Source: Ianthella basta (taxonomy: Eukaryota > Porifera > Demospongiae > Verongiida > Ianthellidae). From it: a stretch of 64,000 nt of DNA. Below the pieces are notes generated by a model that had not been told where the DNA came from, made no database searches, and saw nothing but the letters and a program-made list of their open reading frames with translations. The stretch lies in assembly GCA_964019415.1 (NCBI GenBank), contig OZ025871.1, positions 6,185,213-6,249,212 of the forward strand. Direction: 5' to 3'. Shown one piece after another: positions 1,717-31,956 of the stretch. Each line of letters starts with the position of its first letter. Position 1 is the first letter of the stretch. Position numbers and translations under genes: made by a program.

Positions 1717-3235
1717 CATACTTTCCTGCTGTGTGTCTCTGGTTGACCGACTGTTTGCATTGTGTCTCTACTGTCCTCATCTAAATACTGTCCCAACCTT
1801 TAAATCCCTTAGATAGATTCCCATGAGGTAGGAGGTAGTTGCCTCCTTGGTGGAAATCACCCATTTGCCAACTTTCATTGTACACACCCCACCCTACACA
1901 AGTCCTTATTAACATTGCACTATTACTTCCACACTTGATACACAAAATACAGAAAATGTTGTATATAGCAGTTTGATTGAACACAGTTTCCCATACACCT
2001 AGCTCCCCTTGACAAGGAACAGAAGCTGATAAAACAGTCTGTGCTTGTGTCATGTACTGTAGGCATGTCTTCTTCTGCTTGTGCTGTTTATTATGCAATG
2101 TTTGCTTAAATTGACTGCACAAGAATGGAAGCAGAGGAAAGGCAGGGCTGTAGCGCCAAGATAAAAACCGGTCAGGCCATAGATGACACGATGCAAGGTA
2201 GGGGGTCTGGGGGCATGCCTCCCTGGAAAATTCATAAATCTAGATGTTTTGTGAGTACTTTTGGGGCAATTCTAGGCCCATCAACTCTCCAATGAGTATG
2301 ATAAAATGTAACATAGACAAACAGGCACTTACAGCAGGAAAGGCGATCAAGTGCCGTGTAACAGGTAATACAATGCATTGAACTAAGAAGACAGCGAATT
2401 AAAAATCGAAATCTAGTGGTTTTTGGCTGTCTCTCCGATGCTAGGCAGCACAAATCTCTCCTTTCCTCGGCTAGAAGGCACCATCAAAACACAGCGATCG
2501 ATTACACACCATTTTATGCGTCATGAAAACGTCAAAAACGTCATGCGACATCCGTAAAATGGCTGCTGCCGTTAAGGTTGGTTAGAGGACTAAGTATCTG
2601 GCTATTCCTTGGTCAAGCTAAGTCCTGCAGCACTGTAACAAGTCCACCCTGCTTTTAGAACGTTGTTTAACCTTAGGCCAGTCCCCCCTCCCCCCCCCCC
2701 CCCCCAAGTTGAAAGTGTGTTTAAAATGCATATCTTCAATATTTAGAAATTTTGTTCCAGCTGCAAAAACCACTCTGGCCATGGCCGGACCGGCCGGACT
2801 GGGTGCTACGGCCCTGAAAGGGCATGCATGGCCATGCAAGGCTATAGCATGCACAACTCATAGCACACACAACATATTTGTTCCTCACGCACTGCTTTAG
2901 TGTCCACCTGTTGTTTCCTCCCTCTCTGCCTACACTACCTCACAGGTGACAGATGTGCTGGTGCCACTTCTGTGTCCATGGACTCATGTAGAAGCCATGC
3001 AAACCAAAGTGTTCAGGTCTGTGCTACTAAGAAGATGTGGTATCTTGTCACCACCTTCACTAGTCAGGTGTCACTTGATCCCTCCTCACAAAGGGAAGGG
3101 TCAGTACTATTGCATACATTGACCTGTCAGTCAGTAATGCAATTACTGAATGTGATTTATGTTTCGCGAGGTTTAACGTTCACGGTTTTCACGGATTAGC
3201 AGCCATTCATGAAATTTTGAAAAGAGAAATGCAGA
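1717..3235. other. Intergenic, no gene seen
   Basis: Nothing here holds a convincing frame. It contains a GGGGGTCTGGGGGCATGC motif near 2200, a C homopolymer of about 18 bases near 2687-2705, and near 3160-3200 a short CGCGAGG / TTCACGGTTTTCACGG repeat-like stretch just before the LINE fragment. Confidence 0.5.
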
Positions 3236-3745
3236 AGTAAATAAAATGAAAGTATTTAATGCTATGGTGGTGCCCACGTTACTTTACGGGTGTGGGACAT
3301 GGACAATACAGAAAGCCATGAAAGCAAGCCGCAAACCTTTGAGATAATGTGGCTGAGAAAGGTAAAAGGTGTGACAAGGATGGACAGAGTAAGAAATAAG
3401 CAAGTGAGGAAGGCACTCGGACTAGAAGAAGTGTTACACATATGTAGTGAAGGAAAAGCAAATGAATTGTAAGGATAAATGGGAGGCAATGAGTGAGGTC
3501 AGATTGGTGAGGAAAGTGTGGATGTACAAAGCGAGAAGCAGGAGACTACGGGGATGACCCAGGAAAGGGCGTGATAAACTTTCCAATAAACTCCCCTTAA
3601 TTTGTATGTAGTAGCTGCTATGTTAATATTATGACATATGTTTCTATATACTTATAGGCATGTGTCTATGTGCACTTCTGGGCTACCTCCTGCCAAGGAG
3701 ACAAAACCGTTTGGGTAGTGATGATGATGATTATGAATCTTTTAA
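3236..3745 (+). mobile_element. LINE 3'-end fragment
   Basis: The plus strand encodes, with a frameshift, the C-terminal signature of LINE ORF2: MKVFNAMVVPTLLYGCGTWT, then RVRNKQVRKALGLEEVL. This is the region downstream of the reverse transcriptase. The 3' untranslated part includes GGCTACCTCCTGCCAAGGAG and ends in a short GATGATGATGAT tail. The LINE ending near 21145 has the same CTACCTCCTGCC motif and a comparable TGATTGATTGAT tail, so the two belong to related families that finish in short tandem repeats. Frameshifts and stops mark it as dead. Confidence 0.85.
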
Positions 3746-12636: not shown

Positions 12637-14440
12637 CCCTTGTTTTTAAAGGAAACATTTTTACGCACCCTATACCTTAACTCTCACATGAACTGTGTAC
12701 ATGTTTCTTGCCTGATTGGTCAAAACTTTAGTTTCACTAAGTTATATATAATACACTGGTACTGATAAATTCAAATTCAACGAAAACAGCTGCATGCTGA
12801 AAACTGGTGGATATGCATTGCCTTGCATAGAAAGAATCCTACCAATGCATACACATTCATTGATTACCTATGCCTCTGCAGACATGCAATGAATCACTGC
12901 ATGGGTACATACTAAGTCTACTGCCTGCTACACTAGTATTGGTGTTACAGGAAGGTTGGGTGGCCAAAGCTCATGCTACAGTTGACAACCATGCAATGAT
13001 TGCCTCCCCATTATAATACTTACCCTGCAGAGATGGAGCGATAGATAAACGTACCCGATATAGGTGTTGGGGCTCACCAGTGTGTACTACTGTTGGGAAT
13101 TGTGAGGTCACCAGCTGTAGTTGTACCCTCCACCAGTGAAACACTTGTGGTTCAACAAAAGCAGATAAAGAGACAATTGCAGACCAACAAAAATGAGGAT
13201 CCTGGCTTCGTTGAGACATGCACTGATACTGTGTAACAGGCTGGTAGGCATATAGAGTAGCCAGTGATTATTGATATATAGCTATGTACTTTCTTTTAGT
13301 TTATATGTATTGCATAGGCACTGTATATTGTATAAATCAATGTGCTTCAGATTTCTGATCACAACTTGAGCCAACACCCATTCCTCATGTCAAACAGAAC
13401 TCTTCATGCGTAGCCACTGCTGGTTTGTGAAATAGCTGCTGTGACCACATTTGCCCTCTGTACCTTGACCTCACTTGGTGCAGTAAGCTATTGAATTATA
13501 ATTTAGGCGATATTACTCAGGCCATTACATGGCTGTATATAGCATGTATTTAGCATGTATTTATATGCTTTGCATTGTCACAAGCAATGAAGTGCAACAA
13601 GAGCTAGGGAGCAAATGAAGCTGAGTCAATGCTACATACTGTTCACTCCCTGCATGTAGATACAGGTAAACCAACACTGAATTTACAGTGTATGTTGCAG
13701 GTGTGCGTGTAACATAGATATGTGCATGTGTTGGACTGTACATGAATCCATGACACTGTGTAGAAATCAACAAGTACAGTCTTTGTCCTATTTCACATGC
13801 AGGCACTACTGTAGGTAGTTCTGCTGGCAACATGAAGAAATCCTTGATGCGTGTTAACATTGCACTGGTCATTATGATCTGCGTTGGTCTGTTGCCGTAG
13901 GCAACCATCCTGTTCATGAGTGACTGTGAACGGTACTAGTGCAGTATACATTGAACAATACATAATTATGTGTATAGGATATGTAGTGTAGTGTAGTGTG
14001 TGTTCTGGTAGACCTAGCTCTCTAAAGCTGCATTCTGCACTGTACATGTACACCAAATGTTTCTAAGCTTGTTGGTGATTCAATTTTCAGAACTGGTAGA
14101 CCTTGGGGTAACACAGGTGCAAGTTAGAGTGCATGAATGGTCCCTTGGACACGCCCACTAAACACTATACATTTGTGTGTGTAGTTTCAAATTGGTTTAA
14201 TTATAATAATTATTATAGTCACTTGGACTGCAGGTTCACTGTGTGCATCACACAGCTTACCTGTTACAGTACTTCTTGCAATGGACATTATGTAGGGACA
14301 ACAGAGAGATACTGTACTATATGCTAGAAAACAAGCACAACACCTGAGCCCTGTAGAAGTTCATTACTATGTGATCTTAATTCCAGGGAAGTTTAGTGAG
14401 CTTCAAGCTTAAGCACAGTATTCACTTCAAACGGGAACAA
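12637..14440. other. Intergenic, no gene seen
   Basis: No exon with a supported frame and splice sites was found. Open frames on the minus strand at 13561-13917 and 13793-14056 lack family resemblance and codon bias, and I leave them out. Confidence 0.4.
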
Positions 14441-14444
14441 GACG

Positions 14445-14468
14445 TTTCGATTCGCAGATCTTCATCAG
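14445..14468 (-). ncRNA. Hammerhead-like core of a Penelope element
   Basis: On the minus strand the order is CTGATGA, one extra A, a possible three-pair helix (GAT...ATC), then GAAA followed by CGTC. This matches the conserved core (CUGANGA, stem II, GAAA) of the hammerhead ribozymes known in Penelope-like retroelements. A weak stem II and the extra A argue that this copy is degraded. A Penelope-type endonuclease remnant lies 200 bp away, which supports the assignment. Confidence 0.5.
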
Positions 14469-14639
14469 CTGTAATACAAAATTTAGGGAGTGTGACATTA
14501 AAGAACACCAACCAACATGGAAAGCGAGACACCTCCCAAACCCTTCACATTCCATACGTCAGTGAATGGATTGCATGAGAAGATGTGCCAGCCACTGGGA
14601 GTGAAAACAGTAACATAATCCAGAAGCACCCTCAGAACC

Positions 14640-14815
14640 TCCCTAGTGAAGGTGAAGCAGCCAACACCAGACAGAAAGAAGGGAGTAGTCTACAAGGCAC
14701 TGTGCAAGGATTGCCCATTGGAGAGACCGGTAGAGCCTTGGAGAAACAGATCTGTGAAAACAAAACAGCAGTGGAAATGAATGCACGGCCCCAAGATTTT
14801 ATATTGCAGTGGATT
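14640..14815 (+). pseudogene. GIY-YIG endonuclease remnant, Penelope-like
   Basis: Joining two frames gives KKGVVYKALCKDCP followed by IGETGRALEKQICENKTAV. This follows the Penelope-like element endonuclease pattern: VVYK, a CxxC pair, (Y)IGETGR, then L-E-K and HK-AV. The tyrosine-bearing part between CP and IGET is deleted, causing the frame change. In intact elements this domain follows the reverse transcriptase, of which nothing is seen here. Confidence 0.75.
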
Positions 14816-16745
14816 TAATTATAGGCTCAGTATATGATTGACCTCACATGTGTCCATAGCCACCAAGTTGAAAGTCATTTTTGTGAGGGGTATATGGCAT
14901 TTTAGTCACACTGCAATGTTTAGCATGTCACAATCACTGCTAATAACAGAAAGGCCACACACTAGTATTGCACACATGCAGGCACACATATCCTAGCATT
15001 GTCCACTCACACATATGTTACACAAGCACAGCCTATAAATATATATGTATGCTCTACTTTACTCTCATGTATAATTGCTAACATTGTTCCTGCTATATAA
15101 TAGTTTTGCCAGTGCTATAGCTACTCAGAGATACAAGCACTATGGGACCACACTACATTACACACCCTTCAAAGCATCATCTAGTTCCTCCACAACTGAC
15201 ATGACCCACCCAGCTCCAGTGTGGACCCATATGCATCTTCAGTGGCACTTTCTGCAACAGCAGTTGAAAGTGTGTTGCCATGTCAGCTTGATGCATTACC
15301 ATGCCAGCATTCTCTCTTACCACTCCGTATAGTACTTTTACACTAAACAGTTGGTGTCAACCCATTGCATGAATGATATGTTTAATTATGGATGATCCAG
15401 AGGGTCCCAAACCCAGCTGTTCCCACTTTGACACAAACCTGCATGGAGGTAGATGTGGATGGGAGTGGGGACTTGTGTGCTGTGATCCATTAATCAGGAA
15501 AGACCTCTTTGCACTCTGCCAAAACCAATTTTCTGTTTAGCAGTAGATCCAACACAGCTAGCTACATAATTTCTAAGTATTCAGCGAGTGGAACACATGT
15601 CTTTACTGATCTATTCAACTTTTGCTAATCTGGCACTCTACACAATACTACCAAACTCAATCAGGATTACTTGAGCAATTTCTGTCATTATGCCTGTCAA
15701 TCATGAATTGACCAGCAATTCTGAGGATGTAACACATAGTGTATAGGAGTTGTGTTGATTTGTGTGGACAAATCATTTACCTGGTGGTGTGCCTTCTGAT
15801 TAACAGGCAATGGCAAAAGCAAACGTAGAGTGCTCCCTCACCAGCAATGAAGGGGGAAGCAACTGCTAACAGGGGATGATAGTGTGGTATTCTTTGAGTG
15901 AGTCTTAGTGGTTAAAAGTACAAGTTAGTAGACATATCCTTGCATTGTATCTGATGTCTAAAACTGCTCCACACTTCTTCCTTAACTGTTGATCAATCAG
16001 TCTCTGTTGTTTATGCAATGTTAAATGTTGACTGTCACACGGCAGTGACATGTGATTAAGACTTTATTACACTAGTGATGTTTGTTACTGTCAATTGTAG
16101 GGTCAAGCTGCCGGCACTGGAAGAACTGCATTTCCAAGTACATCTTTGCTGTGAATCCTTCGAGTGTAGTCATTGCCTGCATTTCGGTTAGGAAGAGGTC
16201 AGTTCTGATGGTAAATGCACATCATGCTAGCTTTTGTCATTGTATGTTGTTGCCATGCATATGTGATGCACAAGGGCCCCGTCACAGAAATGGAGCGGCT
16301 GGAGCAATTTTTCATTTGAAGGCTGACCAGCCTATAGGTACCTGCTACTACCTGTACTGGGTTGGGAGACCACAGATGTGTTGAATAACGTGTCAACCAT
16401 TGGCATAAAAGATTGGTTAGGATATAGAGATGTTTCAGGAATCCACAATGTATGTGTATAGAGGTGTCACTGTGTCTGAATAATGTACTTCTTGGAAACC
16501 TAATGTGCTTAGGAAGCCCATTTAGTGATGAAATGCACATATGATGCTTCCATAATACACCTTATTCTTATTTCATTACATTCTTTCATGTTCCAATATG
16601 ATCTTGCCGTAATTTAGAGGTTGGTGTGGGTGATATGCTGTTAATGAATTAATTGCCTCATACCATGCAATTACTTGTTGAATCAGATGATCTGGTGTGA
16701 TTTAATAGTGCCTTGATATGCCCATGGCTAAGTATATATCATATG
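14816..16745. other. Intergenic or 5' region of the NLR gene
   Basis: No confident exon. One possible non-coding or 5' untranslated exon lies at about 16102-16188, with acceptor TCAATTGTAG and donor TTTCG then GTTAGG, but its frames do not join cleanly to the next exon. The rest is AT-rich, without recognised repeats. Confidence 0.3.
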
Positions 16746-16917
16746 CAGTAGGACCCCTCTAATGTGGACACCCTTCGGAACAAGAAAAGTGTTCTGATTA
16801 TAGGGGTGTCCTCGTTTCAGGAGAAGCTTACATTTGTTAAATAGGATGGGACAATTAGCAGTGTCCACATTGGGGCAGTGTCCACGTTTCAGGGTGTCCA
16901 CAGGCTGGGTTCCACTG
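16746..16917. mobile_element. pogo-type MITE, 172 bp
   Basis: The ends are inverted repeats: CAGTAGGACCCCTCTAATGTGGACA on the left against CAGTGGAACCCAGCCTGTGGACA read from the right. CAGT termini and a TA on the right flank (TG on the left, probably mutated) fit pogo/Tc1-mariner elements. The interior holds repeats of GTGTCCAC(A/G)TT and no coding sequence. Confidence 0.75.
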
Positions 16918-17135
16918 TAACTATTTTAGCTGCCATATCTCCTGGTGAACTGAATATTGGAACGTACTTGCTGATGCATACATTATTACATAGCTTCAAT
17001 TTCATTGAATAGAGTTTTGCTATACTATCTCTATACATAATGTACCAATTTTTGTTGAATGCTATTTATTTACTGTATTGTGCAATTGTTATGTAACCTC
17101 TGTGCTAACAGATTTCGCTATTTCTACTTTCATAG

Positions 17136-17274
17136 CTGCCAAATGGACCAGATCATTATTAATGTGTTAGCTGGTGGGCTAGCTCCACAAGTGCAAACAG
17201 CCAAGAAGGGTGCCAGAAGGAAGTGTGGTTGTTCATCAAAGTCATTCTCCATTCAGTGGACCTATGAGATACCA
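17136..17274 (+). CDS. Possible first coding exon of the NLR gene
   Basis: Acceptor TTTCTACTTTCATAG precedes it and donor CCA then GTGAGT ends it in phase 0, matching the phase-0 start of the next exon. With an ATG at 17143 it gives 44 residues, including MDQIIINVLAGGLAPQVQT and a basic, cysteine-containing stretch KKGARRKCGC. No domain is recognised. The next exon has its own in-frame ATG at 17354 just before the acceptor, so translation could instead start there, with this segment untranslated or not an exon at all. Confidence 0.5.
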
Positions 17275-17368
17275 GTGAGTACAGTGACACTTCAGCTGCA
17301 GCTAGCACAGTGTCATGTTTTGTCCATAGTCATTTCCATCACTCCTTGTTACGATGCTCTCCTCACAG

Positions 17369-17486
17369 GTCCTATCCTTGTTGGCTCAGGCTGTATCTGT
17401 TACATTTCTCAGCCTCCTGTTGATCTTGGCTGGAGATGTAGAGGTCAATCCTGGCCCTGGAAAGGGGAAGGAGAGTGCAGCGTCAG
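17369..17486 (+). CDS. 2A-like recoding exon of the NLR gene
   Basis: The exon follows acceptor GCTCTCCTCACAG and ends at TCAG then GTTTGTG. It encodes VLSLLAQAVSVTF and then LSLLLILAGDVEVNPGP, followed by GKGKESAAS. The ending GDVEVNPGP fits the 2A consensus D(V/I)ExNPGP with the usual leucine-rich upstream helix. At such sites the ribosome fails to form the Gly-Pro bond, releases the upstream peptide and continues from proline. N-terminal 2A sequences are established in sea urchin NLR proteins and in some CR1/L2-type LINEs. The exon ends in phase 1, exactly the phase needed by the CARD exon at 21748, which favours the NLR reading. An alternative start at ATG 17354 would put the whole hydrophobic leader at the protein's extreme N-terminus, 34 residues before the break. 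Confidence 0.75.
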
Positions 17487-18021
17487 GTTTGTGATTACTT
17501 CGTTAGTTTTCCCAGTATACGTATGGCACTGTGACATTGTTTTATTGTGGCAGGCATTGACATTGGGTATATTGTAGGCCTGGCAACAGTTCAATTGCTT
17601 CAGACTTCATAATAATATAGCAATACTAGCAAGAATGACCCCTTCCGGTGGGCTTACCTGCTCTGGTGCATCACAATTTTATGCTGGCATTGATCAGCCT
17701 TGGACATGGCCGTGTGCATCAGCAGCAAGCAGTATTCTTAGCTGCACACACTAGTTTGCACTGCAGTTTGCGTTTGCCCCTATAATTATTGTTTTCAGTT
17801 AGGTATTCATTTGGTTTCATGTGTGTAATGATGTATATTTCTGTCTTGCAAATAGCAGCTCTCACGCTGTACTTCACCGTCTCTCAATCAAACGAAATGT
17901 GTTAATAGAGTGATGCTAATAATAATGAAAGACTGTTTAAAGAGATTATCATGGACGAACTTTGTAACTGGCCTCACTCGTCGCTCTTTGTCTGGTAGGG
18001 TCATAAGCATCTTTATTCCTA

Positions 18022-18509
18022 CTAGCTGAATGGCCGCCCTTCGGGTGGGTTCCCAGCATATCGTTTAAAATTGGAGCGTTTAACCAATCGAAACCGTCCA
18101 TTTAATTGGGAGCATTCCGTGGACTCGCTTCGTAAAACTCCGTGCGTACAAAATTTACTTATGTTAATCCATTTCGTTTAAAGGAGTCCAGCGGCGAAGG
18201 CACTAACCACCTTAGGTCACCCCCCGTATTGCCGTGATATACTCTTCCACGTTTGGCGAAGATTAATGAAAAATTGAAGGAGGAGTTCGTGCACAACCAA
18301 ACGCAATCTTTTCCCTATCCCTTAGATATGGCGGCAACCGTAAAAGTGGCAAGAACTCGGACGGAAAGACCTTAAACCAAATTTTGGCTCGGCGAGGTTA
18401 CTCACAGCAGGCCTCTTTGTAATCCTACCACGTTTCGTGAAGTTCGGTCCAGAATTGAAGGAGATTATCCCGGATAGCGAAAATGTGCGTTAAGTTTATT
18501 ATAATAAGA
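18022..18509 (-). mobile_element. Complete non-autonomous Helitron, 488 bp
   Basis: Read on the minus strand it starts TCTTATTATAATAAACTTAA and ends with a GC-rich hairpin (CCCGAAGGGCGG) followed by CATTCAGCTAG. It sits between A and T, as Helitrons do. The TC start, hairpin and CTAG end are diagnostic of these rolling-circle transposons. The 3' 30 bp match the 60.8-kb family, but the body is different. It lies in the intron between the 2A and CARD exons and encodes nothing. Confidence 0.85.
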
Positions 18510-18929
18510 TTTCACCATGTATCCAAAGAAGGCAAGTGTTTCTAGAAAAGGTTTAAGTAATAAAATTGCAGTAGAAAGCTTACCTACGTAACTGTTCTCC
18601 TGCGAGTTACAACCCCAAATACAAAAAGTTGAATGACCAGTTGGCCAATAATGCTGGAGGCAAGCAAGTCATGGCATTATAACTTAGGGCAGGCTTTTAG
18701 CCAAAATACTCCTCCAGACTCAAAGTAACATTTAACAAGTACATCCTCATTCAGAGTGTTACATAGATCAAAGGCAGTCAGCAAAGTATTTTGATAGTTT
18801 GGTAGGCATGTTTTCACTGGGTGACCGGCTGTTCTGGAGGCTTGAAACTCCTGAGAACCCAACACAGTGGCATTTTGATGTATCGTCAAGGCCATCAGCA
18901 ATGCTGCATCCCTAGCTATCTAAACTATT

Positions 18930-21150
18930 GAACATACACGGCCCGGGGCAATTGCCAGCAAGTAGTTTGAGTTCCAGAGAAGAGGACAGTAGGAAGAGCC
19001 AACTACGGAGTGAAAGAGTGCAGACAGTGGAGGGTAGTTTGAAGTTTTGGAGAGAGCTAAGTGGAACATGGTTGAACACAGTGAAGGGGAAAGGGTTTAA
19101 AGAATGTGGGAAGAGTTCAAAGGAGGTATCTTAGTGGTAGTTGAAGAAGTGTATGAGAAATGTTGAAGAGATAAAAGAATTGGATTGAACGATTCTCCAC
19201 TGGATGTTGGAGTAAGGACATAGAAGCAGCTATCAGGAAAAGAAGATAGCATACAAGATTTAGCTCCCGTGAAAACTGATGAAGCAAGAGATGGGTACCT
19301 TGGTGCTAAGAAAAAGCTAGACAAGTGGTAAGGAAGATTAATATATGGAATGGATCAAGCTTGGTGAGTCCCTCCAGCATGACTTTATAAATAATCAATG
19401 GTAGTTTGGGGGGAAGATAAGTGCAGCAATGAAGGGGACGCAGGAAGTGGGGGAAAGTATGTGATGAGAATGAGCTGGTGATTTGTGAGGAGAGAGAGAG
19501 ATGGAGGCCAATGGACAGCTGCAGCAAACGATGCATGTGGTTAGGGAAGTACAAGGAAGAGAAGCCCAGCTGGAGGAGACTGTAGATGACATTATATACT
19601 ACAGAGGAGGTACATAGAAGTATTGCTAGAGTAAAGAATAGAAAACACCATGGGTGTGTGGGATAAGTGGTGAAGTGCTGAAGGCTGGGGGAGAAATACG
19701 TAGTAGTAGAATGGTTGCATAGAATTATGAGCAAAGCATGGACGAGTGCATGGCATGCCGATGATGGTGTCTTCCAGAAAACCGCTAGTGATCCCAGTAC
19801 ATAAGAAGGGCAGCAAACTTCAATGTAAGAACTGCCGAGGGATCAGTCTGCTAAGTATATCTGGTAAGGTGTATGCCAAGGTACTGTTCAGAGGATGAGA
19901 GACATTACTGAAGGGATGATATTGGCGGATCAATCGGCGTTCCAGAAGAAAAGAAATTGTACGGACCAGCTGTTTACTGTCAGGATGTAAAATGAACAGG
20001 TTATTGCGAAAAACAAAGAAATGTTCATGGTATGTGTTGACCTAGAACAAGCCTACAACGCCATAGACAGGGAGATGACATGGAATTCGCTGGAAGAGTA
20101 TTATGGAATCACAATGCTTATGGACAGCAGTATGATCAATACACGTGAAGTGTGAGGCATGTGTGAAATTGTAAGGAGGTAAATCAAACTGCTTCCAGGT
20201 GGAGCAAGGTGTGAGGTAGGGTTGTGTGATATCACCATGTCTCTTCAATATGTACATAGACCACATTTTGAGGGAGGCAATGGAGAGGTTTAGTAGAGGA
20301 GTCAAAGTGGACGAAGGAAATGTGCAGCTTCTACTGTTTGCAGATGACCTAATGCTGGTGGCTGAGAAAGAGGAGTATGTAGTGAGTATTCTAAGGATCT
20401 TGGATGATGTGATGGCAAAAAGGAATATGAAAATGAAATGAGGTAAGGCAATAGTTGTGAAAAAGGAGGAGGCTCAGGCAATGTTTTGGTGAAGGGAATG
20501 GAGGATTGAGGAAGTGAAAGTAATGAAGTATCTCGGGACAATTTTCAATAAAGAAGAGTCATACGAAGATGCAGTGGATGGGAGAATTAAGTATACATGC
20601 TGAACCATTGGGCACTGAAGTAGTAGATCGTAGATCGGAAGGAACTAAGCAAGACCACACAGTTGAGAGTGTATATATATGCTATCCTAAAGCCTACACT
20701 ACTTTATGGCAGTGAAACGTGGACACTACAGACCAGGCACATGCACGAAGAAGCTGCAGGAAACAGTGATGAGTTACCATTGAGGAAGTGTCAGGAATTG
20801 ATAGGCTAAGAAGTGATGGCATTAGAGAGAGACTGAGGCAGGAAGGTGTTGTAAAGACTCTACTAAGAAGGGGCAATGGAGGAGGAAGATTGAAGAAGTG
20901 GAGAGTATCGTAAAGACAGTATATTTGGAGGAAATGCCAGGAAAGAGACCAAGAGGGAGACCAAGACAAGATGGGAAGATTGCTCGATTTGACAATGTAT
21001 ACAGAACTCCACTGTATACATTGAACTGGTTATATATGTAGGCATGTTATTATTACTGCAACTGTTCCAGTAGGTAGGTATGTATACTAGCTACCTCCTG
21101 CCTAGGAGAAAGAGCTATTGCTGGTTTGATGATTGATTGATTGATTGAAC
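18930..21150 (+). mobile_element. Degenerate LINE with reverse transcriptase
   Basis: Scattered frames, broken by stops and frameshifts, give FKECGKSSKEVS (19.1 kb), PVHKKGSKLQCKNCRGISLL (19.8 kb), CVDLEQAYNAIDREM (20.03 kb), VISPCLFNMYIDHILREAM and LLLFADDLMLVAEKEE (the FADD catalytic box, 20.34 kb), KVMKYLGTIF (20.52 kb) and LYGSETWTLQTR (20.71 kb). It ends with CTACCTCCTGCCTAGGAG and a TGATTGATTGATTGA tail. It is dead, and lies in the large intron between the 2A and CARD exons in the same orientation as the gene. Confidence 0.9.
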
Positions 21151-21747
21151 TACATAATTATTTGTACATATGTACTATTCTGTGTGACTTCATGATGGCA
21201 GGAGCGCATAATGGGAATAATGAAGGGAGTGTGCTCCTCTGGTCATGTTATCGAAAAGAACATGAGTACAAAGAGTCATTATATGTACCCCTCAGATACT
21301 TTGTGCACACGGAACAATCATAATTAGTTACAAATTAGCCTGCCCATACTGTCTGATCATTGCTATTGCATGCATGCTTGAGTCAAATGCCATGGCCAGT
21401 GCAAACAGTATCTTGCAGCACTCTGCAATCAATGTACATGGCACACAGCTGGAACCGGTGAATGGCAGTGTATGGCTGCCCCTGCCCAGCCGGTGATGTG
21501 ATGCTGAGTGAGCAGGGCTGAAGGCTGCACTTAACACGTAGCTAGACATGCACTTCATTCTTCTATTGATTTACACATACACATACACTTCTGTTCACTC
21601 TTGTATTGATTTGCTATATAAATGTAGAAGCTGCACCGCAGAAGCAGCAATACAATAGGCATATATGAGTAGCAGTTCTGTTTAAGTGTATAATGGAAAA
21701 CCCAGTTGCCAATGGATGTGCTCCTCTTTCTCACTGTTACTTCTTAG

Positions 21748-22065
21748 GGAGCAGCACTCAGCCCATGAGTACATGGAATGCTGATGCAGTAGTATCCCTG
21801 AGAGAGAAACTGAAACTCAATGTATTATTACATATGGGACTCATTGATAAACTGGCAAAGGATGCAGGTGGGTTTATGAGTCATTATGAAGAACAAATGG
21901 TAAGACAAACATCTAGCAACATTGAAGGGATGGATAGAGTCACAGACATTCTTTGTGGAAAGGGAGATGATGACTTCCACACCTTCTGCAAGATATTGCG
22001 TGAGAGCAGCAACAGCACCTGGGCAGATGAGCTGGAAAGGATGGCTGAATGGTTCAAGGGAAGAG
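21748..22065 (+). CDS. CARD exon of the NLR gene
   Basis: A strong acceptor (TCTTTCTCACTGTTACTTCTTAG) starts it and a donor AGAG then GTAATG ends it in phase 1; an alternative donor G then GTATGT six bases later keeps the same phase. It encodes about 106 residues with a caspase-recruitment-domain pattern. Helix-like segments run LREKLKLNVLLHMGLIDKLA, FMSHYEEQMVRQ, GMDRVTDILCGKGDDDFHTF and CKILRESSNSTWADELERMA. The (D/R)-LL-KGD-DF-F core is the classic CARD signature. CARDs recruit other CARD proteins, often caspases or kinases. An upstream ATG at 21693 lies inside the intron's polypyrimidine tract and is probably not used. Phase 1 at the start joins the 2A exon in frame. Confidence 0.8.
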
Positions 22066-22738
22066 GTAATGGTATGTATTAAGAATCATTCAATGTGTAT
22101 GTGCATGTGTATAGTGCTATGCATATGTTTGTATTGTAATTATAGGAATGAATGCAAAATAATATCTTTTCCCACTTTCTAAGTCATGTTGTATAATAGT
22201 ATAACGATGGTACAGTTAAAAGGCTACTGACAAGCTGTTTAACTTGTCAAGTGTATTGAGGAGGCTGAATCCTGATGGGCTGCCATGTAAATGCCTGCTC
22301 TGGTCCAACTTCATGTTTGCTGAACTACCTTCCTGAATCTGTGATCTTCCTATGTTAACATATATGATCAGCTCTTATATAATAATTTCTGACAGCAGTT
22401 GTATAATTTAGTATTCAACTACAGAAGGTGCATATCACTTGAACCTATTTAGCACTATGGTATCTCCTATTAATCTGTGTGTGCCTATATTCATGACCCT
22501 GGGTTGAAATGGCTTCCCACTGAATGTAATTTACTGATAACCAGAACAAAAATATGAACTGTCAAAGTAGACACGCCCAAAAAGACATTGAGCAAACATT
22601 ACTCGACAGCTGACTACTCTGAAAGACCTGTTTGGGCATGTTGCATCACTGGTAGCTAGCTCTTTCAAAAAGTCACTAGCCAAAGATTGTGCAATACACT
22701 TTGCATGGTAGCTGATTCAGTTCTTTCAAGAGTAGATA

Positions 22739-23290: not shown

Positions 23291-23307
23291 TTGAGGAAAG
23301 AGAAGAA
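23291..23307 (+). CDS. Possible 17-nt microexon between CARD and NACHT
   Basis: The CARD exon ends in phase 1 but the NACHT exon opens in phase 0, so a connecting exon of length 3n+2 is needed. This segment has an excellent acceptor (TCTTCTGTTGCACTGCAG), a donor AGAA then GTAAGA, and 17 nt that would encode V-E-E-R-E-E. It fits exactly, but so short a segment could fit by chance. Confidence 0.3.
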
Positions 23308-24577
23308 GTAAGAAGGTCTCCCTTGTCATTCGGCAGAGATGATAATGTGAGTTAGCCTGAATTAAGCTTAAAGCAAGGTGATGTAGGATACCTTCACGAG
23401 TGGGATAACTTTGTATATTTAGAATTCAGTTGGCTTTGGAATGAAACTGGAGATATTGGTATACTCCGGCACATATGGTGCTGAGTCTGTGATTGAGCCA
23501 TCACAGTCACTCTGTGAACCATTGTGTCTCTTCCTTATTGCAAGGGCAAGCTCTAGGTAGTGCAAGTGAATCAAACTTTAGTTTAGTTTTAGATACTTGC
23601 TCAGCATTTGTAAATCTACAGCTAATAGGATCCACTGTAATACCATTTGCAAGCTGTAATTATACACAGTTTGGTGTTGTCCTGCAATAATTATTCATAG
23701 GCAGCGCATTATGATTCAAGATGATGGTATTCCAGTCCTGTGTGTAAGATGTATTGACAGCATATCGATAAGAGCCATTGAACAGATGCTGTGACCATTT
23801 CCTCTTTATCCATGCCAATGCATTCACTGTCCTTCATGCATTGCAGTATGAGTGCAATTTTCATGAAGTTACCCACCCACCACTTCGATTATTGTCAAAC
23901 ATCTGCAACTGTCCCTGCAAATACTATAGTTCAGTTCCCTACTGCATTTGTGTGTATAGTGGACATTGATGCTAGTAACTATAGATAAAAAGTTAGATAG
24001 AGAAAAGTTAGACTTTTACTGCCTATTAACTGTGGAAATTATGCAATGATTTTAAGGAGATGCCCAAGATGGCCTTAATTGAATGTATCTGATTATGATG
24101 GAGCTAGGCCGATTTTTTATTCATGCACACAATTATCTCTGAAATCGACCGAAGGATGAAGGTACCGTTTACCTTTAGCTTGCATATTCCTCCTCTGGGA
24201 TAGCAGTAACATCAAAGTTGCCATTCAGAATATTATGTACATCAGTAGGTCTGTCAGTAAAGCAGTTAAACACTTGGTAAGGGCTGTTGTCACTGAAGGA
24301 CTGCCTAACCTAGATGAATTTTTAGAGTAGAGGCAGTACAGAGCATATATATACCACCAAAATAGCAGCAATGGCTGAATTTAAGACACCATGCAGAACT
24401 TTAATTTCGCTACAACACTGTGCCAGTTAGATTGCCATGTGGAGCTCAAACAGTAGCTCGCCTTGTGGAGCTCAAACAGTAGCTCGCCCTTCATGCCTGT
24501 TCTGTATGTGTTCTTGTACATGACTTGTGTCCATAGGTGCCCTGCGTTTCGCACTGAAAACGTGCATATTTCAGTGA
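23308..24577. other. Intron sequence, no feature recognised
   Basis: AT-rich. A 27-bp tandem duplication (GAGCTCAAACAGTAGCTCGCC) lies at about 24444-24490. Nothing else supported. Confidence 0.4.
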
Positions 24578-30302: not shown

Positions 30303-31956
30303 ATGGTGCTGCTGTTCTTCAGGAATGTAGAAGCCTACAATGACCAAATGCAAATTGTACAAGACAATTTCTGCAGGGATCGCACAATAAAGTTTGTAAA
30401 GCTTGCAATGGCTCCATTCAAATTGGGCTATGAGAAACAGCAGAAGAGGTTTGTTGAAGCAGTGTGCGACCCAGAAGGCGTGGACAAGGTATTAACACTT
30501 GTCACAGTCAAGGTGAAGTATGATGATCTTCCTGACCTGATGAAACAGTTCAAGCTCTTGGTCCTAAGTGGTGCTCCTGGTGTTGGAAAGAGTACACTAG
30601 CACGGAAGTTGTGTCAAGATATATCTAAGAAAAGTAAGCAACATGACTATCAATTGGTGTTTCTGTTGGAGCTACGCAATCTAATTGGTTATGTTGGTAG
30701 ACCTGAGGAGTTTCAAACCAAGCACTTGCTGGAGCACTTCAGTGGCCTCATGTGTGAAGGATGCACACCAGAGGTGGTGGCTAGGGCACTTGAAAAGGAC
30801 CTTGGTAGAGGAGTGCTCCTGATCTTAGACGGCTATGATGAGTTGTCTGCCCCACTGCGCCAGTGTCCATTTTTCCATCACCTTCTGACACATTCTCTTC
30901 AGTCTCCACTTTCCGGCTGTGACATTGTATTAACATCCAGGTCAATAGTCACCAGCGAGATATATCAGCATATTGATGAGTCAGATAGGAATTTTGTGAA
31001 TGTTGAAGTGCTTGGACTTGGAAAGAGTGAAATAAAGAATTTTTCTCAGCAATACTTTTATGAGCAAGGCCGACCTGACCTGCTGGACTCATTTCTGGAT
31101 AAGTTGGAGCAGTTTCCCCAAATGAAGGGCCTCTACTCTAACCCAGTGGTCCTGTCTATACTTTGTGTTGTGTACCTATTCCAGGAAAACCTCCCCCATA
31201 CTCTGACTGAGGTGTATGATGCATTTATCTGTAGGAAGTTATTGCTCAATTCAGATCCGTCAGACACTCATGATCATGACAGCTCTGTCTTACATCTTTC
31301 TGATGAGCATGATTTTTATCATCTCTGCAGCACTGCTTATACCTGTGTTGTTGAACAAAAGGTAACCTTTACATCATCAGAACTCAAGGGTCTTTCATCA
31401 AGGTACTCAAATCGTGAAAGTGGGTGTGGTCTCTTAACAGCACGCCCTGTGGGCAAGTTGAGGCTTAAATTAGAAGCAGTGGACAGCTTCTACTTTCTCC
31501 ATCTGACCGTTCAAGAGTTTCTCAGTGCCATCCACATTTCCAGGCAGGATATTTCAGTTCAACAAAAGATCTGGGACGAGTACCTTGGACAACTCCACAT
31601 GGCTCAAGTGTGGAAATTCTTCTGTGGGATAACCAAACTAAAGAACTTTGATGCACTCCACCTCACGTCAAAGGTAAAAGACCAGGACTTCTTATTGCAG
31701 TCTCTTTATGAGTCACAAAATAGTGATGTGACTAGTGCTGCAATGAAGAATGCATTCAATGACAGTCCAGAAGTGAAGCCAAGGAATCCCTACAGTGCTG
31801 TGGCTTATGGTTACTGTCTGCAGCATCACCAGATCATGAAGAAACTCACTGTTGTCTGCCGTAAAGACATTCGAGTTCACATTTGTAATCTACTCTCTCC
31901 TGTACTCCAGTCAGCTTCTGGCTTGCATCTGACACTCAGTAAATGTCACCCTAAAG
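30303..31956 (+). CDS. NACHT NTPase exon of the NLR gene
   Basis: A 551-codon open exon with no breaks. Counting from its first codon, the P-loop GAPGVGKST is at 90-98, the Walker B/DGxDE box VLLILDGYDEL at 171-181 and the sensor IVLTSRS at 208-214. These are followed by LGLGKSEIKNFSQQYF and the conserved proline region NPVVLSILCVV, then FLHLTVQEFLSAIHIS, the winged-helix/HD signature of animal NLRs. The end (LQSASGLHLTLSKC) begins the LRR part. NACHT domains bind ATP or dATP and drive oligomerisation after ligand sensing in the cytosol. The donor AAAG then GTGAAC leaves phase 1, matching exon A1. The first codon is ATG directly after the acceptor, and a second acceptor (TTCTTCAG) lies 20 nt in, so the exact start is open. 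No key motif is missing, so the exon looks functional. Confidence 0.93.

Follow-up and report, generated by a model that had tools for sequence, protein, structure and literature searches.

An in-phase 2A (StopGo) exon ahead of a CARD-NACHT gene of Ianthella basta and its likely membership in an NLR clade of two-protein genes

We have analysed a 64,000-nucleotide stretch of the sponge Ianthella basta (hereafter the window, positions 6,185,213 to 6,249,212 of contig OZ025871.1, or C4:6185213-6249212, in a genome of 209 Mb and 96 contigs) containing an NLR gene in which an exon coding for a 2A (StopGo) peptide precedes, in phase, a CARD exon and a NACHT exon. This gene likely belongs to a clade of NLRs organised as two-protein genes, with an upstream polypeptide and a CARD-NACHT sensor, and one message probably yields both proteins. 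The motif itself, its reading frame, the compatible phases, the co-occurrence with NLRs in separate arrays and a frame-specific conservation are all visible in the DNA. The exons are as follows (a slash marks an exon border and ^ the bond to be skipped).

16101..16197, plus strand: exon -2, phase 1 to 2, ..SSCRHWKNCISKYIFAVNPSSVVIACISVRK..
17136..17274, plus strand: exon -1, phase 2 to 0, ..CQMDQIIINVLAGGLAPQVQTAKKGARRKCGCSSKSFSIQWTYEIP
17369..17486, plus strand: 2A exon, phase 0 to 1, VLSLLAQAVSVTFLSLLLILAGDVEVNPG^PGKGKESAAS
17432..17458, plus strand: 2A core GDVEVNPG^P, within the 2A exon 17369-17486
21748..22071, plus strand: CARD exon, phase 1 to 1, start cttcttag/GG, end AATG/GTATGT
23291..23346, plus strand: small linker exon, phase 1 to 0, predicted from a block conserved with locus L043 and compatible splice sites
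30303..31956, plus strand: NACHT exon, start in phase 0, predicted end donor AAAG/GTGAAC

The 2A exon evolves as coding sequence in the 2A frame, under selection. Across 20 aligned copies (the window and the paralogue loci L010-L028) the ratio of nonsynonymous to synonymous change (pN/pS, distinct changes counted against the majority codon) was 0.22 in the 2A frame versus 1.42 and 4.81 in the other two, and the nine core residues were invariant in 20 of 20 while their codons varied at three positions. The acceptor AG and the donor CAG/GTTTGT are retained in the 20 copies and the adjacent introns carry indels, which supports the bounds 17369-17486 and bears out the original prediction of an exon ending there in phase 1. 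Scanning the 64,000 nucleotides with up to 3 mismatches, GDVEVNPGP was the sole match (0.01 in shuffled sequence); DVEVNPGP at 17435-17458 fits the StopGo core pattern (D/G/C/N)(V/I)ExNPGP, and in the window copy a leucine-rich run precedes the core. A DNA search with the exon recovered 30 copies, all on the plus strand of C4 and in one NLR array, and a comparison of this match list with the genomic motif list showed GDVEVNPGP retained in 30 of 30. Genome-wide there were 60 GDVEVNPGP sites versus 0 for the reversed pattern, and 360 versus 0 for D[VIM]ExNPGP, part of the latter accounted for by long interspersed nuclear elements (LINEs).

Downstream, the NACHT exon scored 67.1 bits with the Pfam NACHT model (cut-off 26.7). 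The CARD exon scored 13 bits with Pfam CARD, below the cut-off of 23.9. Its predicted fold (21748-22071) is closest to the CARD of Apaf-1: the AlphaFold2 model (predicted local distance difference test, pLDDT, 80) found Apaf-1 CARD 1cy5 as best Foldseek match (probability 1.00, template modelling scores 0.67/0.77, E-value 0.016), and Apaf-1 was also the best hit of a PDB profile search with the exon (E-value 0.016). The phase-1 start of this exon is likewise present in L016, L017, L018 and L022, and its end AATG/GTATGT is conserved. A simple pattern scan gave no convincing leucine-rich repeats downstream in the window, and exons for such repeats may lie beyond it. The chain of phases fits throughout, from the 2A exon (end 1) through the CARD exon (1 to 1) and the linker (to 0) to the NACHT exon (start 0). 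The claim of an in-phase connection from the 2A exon to a CARD-NACHT gene is upheld, with a phase-1 donor at 17486, a phase-1 acceptor at 21748 and compatible junctions on to 30303. The same arrangement was sought in the 28 loci with a located effector exon. All 28 have the phase-1 donor after the 2A, and 24 have a phase-1 effector acceptor with a usable pyrimidine tract, by acceptor criteria fixed after viewing the sites. Outside this tally stand L001, L002, L005-L007 and L037 (whose available DNA shows no effector exon), the LINE-like L003 and L004, L019, L023 and L024 (DEATH-like exon by eye), and the CARD loci L036 and L053, whose available DNA has no 2A on the plus strand.

The 2A exon is preceded by further exons, which together with it we call the type I module. 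Exon -1 has an open frame in all 20 copies (L026 with an in-frame 3-base deletion), a donor ACCAGT[GA]AG and a pN/pS of 0.48 versus 1.37 and 0.94 off frame; at position 17143, 7 of the 9 copies spanning its ATG have ATG and 2 have ATA. For the exons before it the 13 C4 copies with available upstream DNA were compared (the window, L037-L040 and L044-L051). Exon -2, with tag/GG at its start and an end of the type AAGAG/GT[CTA]AGT, is present in 11 of them and was not found in L039 and L050. Exon -3 was found in 8 of the 13 (the sequence of L045 does not extend to it), with a pN/pS of 0.47 versus 1.13 and 1.05 off frame. In other families (8 loci) exon -1 is replaced by an exon C (0.42 versus 1.06 and 0.75). 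In the C2 family (L005-L008) the earliest recognised type I exon has an ATG in an ACCATG context, and the type I join up to the Gly comprises 196 residues, with 34 lysines or arginines, 6 aspartates or glutamates and a hydrophobic segment near the N-terminus. In the C4 type I module of the window, the last hydrophobic stretch stops 10 residues before the Gly. A Pfam search with the upstream modules gave nothing above cut-off, and the type I leader plus CARD had no relatives in a large protein set at an E-value of 0.001. By eye, exon -3 (L038 1412-1645, L040 1510-1740) resembles the pair formed by exon -1 and the 2A exon (RKCC.., LQQAV.., KR..AAS), with no 2A core, and is perhaps an old exon duplication. 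Positions 14345-17340 of the window are 99.7% identical to 1-2996 of L037 (C4, 7.37 Mb), which makes the 5' parts of both recent duplicates, 1.2 Mb apart; their homology with the other copies ends near 16065.

A second kind of module, type II, was first met at L052, an NLR that has no type I leader. It is a single exon, basic in composition, that runs from a conserved Met to GDIETNPG in 134 residues, and its hydrophobic 19-residue window stops 9 residues before the Gly. This genome holds 107 type II matches, fragments among them, and the protein set 68 relatives, with an exact D[VI]ExNPGP in 58 and NPGP in 61; the start Met is present in 58 of the 58 relatives that hold PISxE. Judged by their sequences, the two upstream modules are unrelated to each other. 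One type II relative, P0128, is an NCBI hypothetical protein of an alphaproteobacterial metagenome-assembled genome, probably host DNA within a metagenome bin.

Both modules are coupled to one group of NLRs. Taking the 78 NACHT exons most similar to that of the window as the clade, 76 have a 2A module upstream. In the C4 array a module lies between the NACHT exon and the preceding NACHT in 55 of 56 cases, the nearest being type I for 29 NACHTs and type II for 26, with none for one (4012330). A class of C4 NLRs devoid of 2A (27 of 56 by type I alone) was considered and was overturned once type II had been mapped. Seen from the modules, 29 of the 31 type I leaders on C4 are followed by a NACHT within 30 kb and ahead of the next leader (random points, mean 10.9, maximum 19). 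In the C2 array a D[VIM]ExNPGP site lies 2.6-14.4 kb ahead of the NACHT in 19 of 19 cases. The search for the same leader at other NLR genes, proposed in the original prediction, thus finds the module before many of them. A type I match lies 8.7 kb upstream of the NACHT C11:4586009 and 7.8 kb upstream of C1:11211113, and none of the modules was seen upstream of C4:8440230. Among the 102 best-scoring NACHTs of other clades, 0 had any of the 60 listed modules within 40 kb upstream; set against the near-complete cover here, this makes the coupling a property of one NLR clade.

In the two-protein gene that we propose, the upstream exons would encode a polypeptide whose last parts are a hydrophobic stretch and then the 2A motif, and the downstream exons a death-fold domain (a CARD in the window) and a NACHT. 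Ribosomes would skip the Gly-Pro bond, releasing the upstream protein, and translation would continue into a cytosolic CARD-NACHT sensor with an N-terminal Pro. Tail-anchored proteins have a C-terminal hydrophobic helix and a short tail, and the released chain, with a hydrophobic run ending about 10 residues before the new C-terminus in type II as well as in the window copy, would be tail-anchor-like. Where skipping fails, a minority of chains would remain in one piece and might be tethered to a membrane; routing of such chains into the secretory pathway is possible. A wider proposal, which we put forward tentatively and would not yet expect to hold, is that the whole clade is expressed as 2A polyproteins, with at least two unrelated membrane-anchored partners made in equimolar amounts and separately located, and that the ratio of skipping to fusion, being dependent on the ribosome, could set free versus tethered sensor, reading out disturbed translation.

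The original prediction had the 2A terminate a short hydrophobic leader, and an explanation along these lines would make the 2A exon an N-terminal signal sequence from the ATG at 17354 (MLSSQVLSLLAQAV..), skipping giving a cytosolic NLR and its failure a secreted one. Such dual targeting has been demonstrated for the sea urchin SpNLR2A6 (PMC4981915), and the run before the 2A is strongly hydrophobic. The ATG with a frame open to the splice site is found in only 15 of the 20 copies, leaving 5 that have no usable ATG, whereas the splice acceptor is retained in 20 of 20, and coding exons lie upstream (16101-16197, 17136-17274). The 2A does not, therefore, terminate a short leader as a general design, nor does the window gene seem to have its 2A in the N-terminal position of the sea urchin type. 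Type II contradicts that claim as well: there the 2A closes a chain of ~134 residues that begins at a conserved Met. We consider dual targeting of this type unlikely. To a similar degree we doubt that the 2A modules, as genes of their own or as decayed exons, were merely co-duplicated with NLR units. The spacing on C4 is that of a tandem array and an in-phase acceptor is not visible in 4 of the 28 loci (L011, L021, L028 and L042), as such a history would allow; but the 2A exon is under frame-specific constraint, order and phase are repeated in arrays and single loci across contigs C2, C3, C4, C11 and C26, and two unrelated modules occupy the same place upstream of one NLR clade.

The 2A sequences of LINEs were reportedly treated by Odon et al. 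in 2013, and this genome has LINE-like 2As of its own; the two examined, L003 1345-1701 and L004 1438-2177, both have GDVEVNPGP. RING/PHD-like zinc-finger sequence follows the 2A in both and endonuclease-like sequence in L004, all below Pfam cut-offs, and several 2A-module matches fall in open frames of ~1000 amino acids. The window exon would belong to a LINE open reading frame only very improbably: its frame closes shortly after the conserved donor, neither zinc finger nor endonuclease follows, and the 30 DNA copies are confined to one strand of one NLR array. LINE origin, which the original prediction had named as a possible refutation, was rejected on these grounds.

Several observations weigh against the two-protein gene and should be set beside it. 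The joined message is predicted from genomic DNA, which also suits mere co-duplication. The 55 of 56, one module per NACHT interval, is a raw count, and duplication in tandem would by itself bring a linked exon with it. Besides the four loci with no visible phase-1 acceptor, the frame of the 2A exon is broken in L042 and one C2 copy of the 2A module holds a stop; NPGP is absent from 7 of the 68 type II relatives. CARD-B, CARD-C and DEATH-like are by-eye names for other exons in the effector position that had no Pfam match (the CARD-B fold had a pLDDT of 70.5 and a best Foldseek probability of only 0.20). Upstream, exon -2 shows no coding constraint (pN/pS 0.59 in 11 copies versus 0.77 and 0.66 off frame), exon A of C2 (5 loci) runs contrary to it (1.06 versus 0.41 and 1.02), exon -3 is missing from the window and L037, and neither exon -2 nor exon -3 was found in L039 and L050. 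The last hydrophobic window of the C2 type I join is weaker and stops 23 residues before the Gly, and because a splice acceptor sits before its ATG and the matching L002 sequence has no such ATG, this type I ATG is a candidate start only.

Some side observations were made in the same sequences. An open reading frame at 2-607 of the window (minus strand) resembles by eye a fragment of a LINE reverse transcriptase. In L042 the 2A exon is separated from the NLR exons by a 366-amino-acid frame, transposase-like by eye (2586-3683 of the reverse complement). C96:9003-10343 is a COX1 interrupted by 9 in-frame TGA codons, which a mitochondrial contig would presumably read as Trp.

If 76 of 78 clade NACHTs have their upstream 2A as part of the gene, 2A would be a regular gene design in an animal, and more than one partner would be joined to NLRs through it. 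The clade would offer dozens of natural paralogues for asking what use an immune sensor has for a partner made along with it, and whether stress on translation changes the result. Rao et al., in 2025, reportedly searched viral and cellular proteomes for 2As. Our literature search, which excluded that paper (Rao et al. 2025, Cell Rep 44:115822), gave no report of 2A in sponge NLRs, so an earlier description is possible. In the portions of the literature covered we did not meet a 2A preceded by separate coding sequence that comes in two unrelated kinds, nor a near-complete 2A cover of an NLR array. Large NACHT families with CARD or DEATH are described in the sponge Dysidea avara (PMC12909245), a likeness to the present genes; its main text does not contain the words 'signal peptide' or 'ribosome', '2A' itself not having been searched.

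As far as the covered parts of PMC12846837, PMC11512398 and PMC4981915 go, 2A recoding is described as frequent among RNA viruses but seldom found in cellular genes, sea urchin NLRs being the cellular example. The window core fits the pattern (D/G/C/N)(V/I)ExNPGP given for viral StopGo/2A by Li et al. 2026 (PMC12846837), with the difference that it belongs to a cellular, spliced host gene. LINE 2As share the identical octapeptide with the window 2A, and there zinc-finger-like and endonuclease-like sequence follows (L003/L004), not CARD-NACHT exons. The joining of 2A to NLRs is already known in the sea urchin. Roulston et al. 2016 (PMC4981915) give 14 NCBI entries, out of 87, whose N-terminal 2A is 26 residues long, and ~35% (85 of 241) in which a 2A stands at the N-terminus or close to it; SpNLR2A6 skips at ~80% in vitro and, with skipping blocked, is targeted to the Golgi of HeLa cells. 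This case is cited by Li et al. 2026 (PMC12846837) as likely useful incomplete skipping. Activity was measured in sea urchin, whereas that of the 2As described here is predicted from sequence, a difference from viral ones too. As far as those sources go, NLR genes of both animals have a 2A core at their front and a hydrophobic run before the core, in many members. They differ in that the 14 tabulated sea urchin 2As are N-terminal signal sequences of 26 residues, while here further coding sequence of two unrelated kinds precedes the 2A, and in that nearly every NLR of the C4 array carries one.

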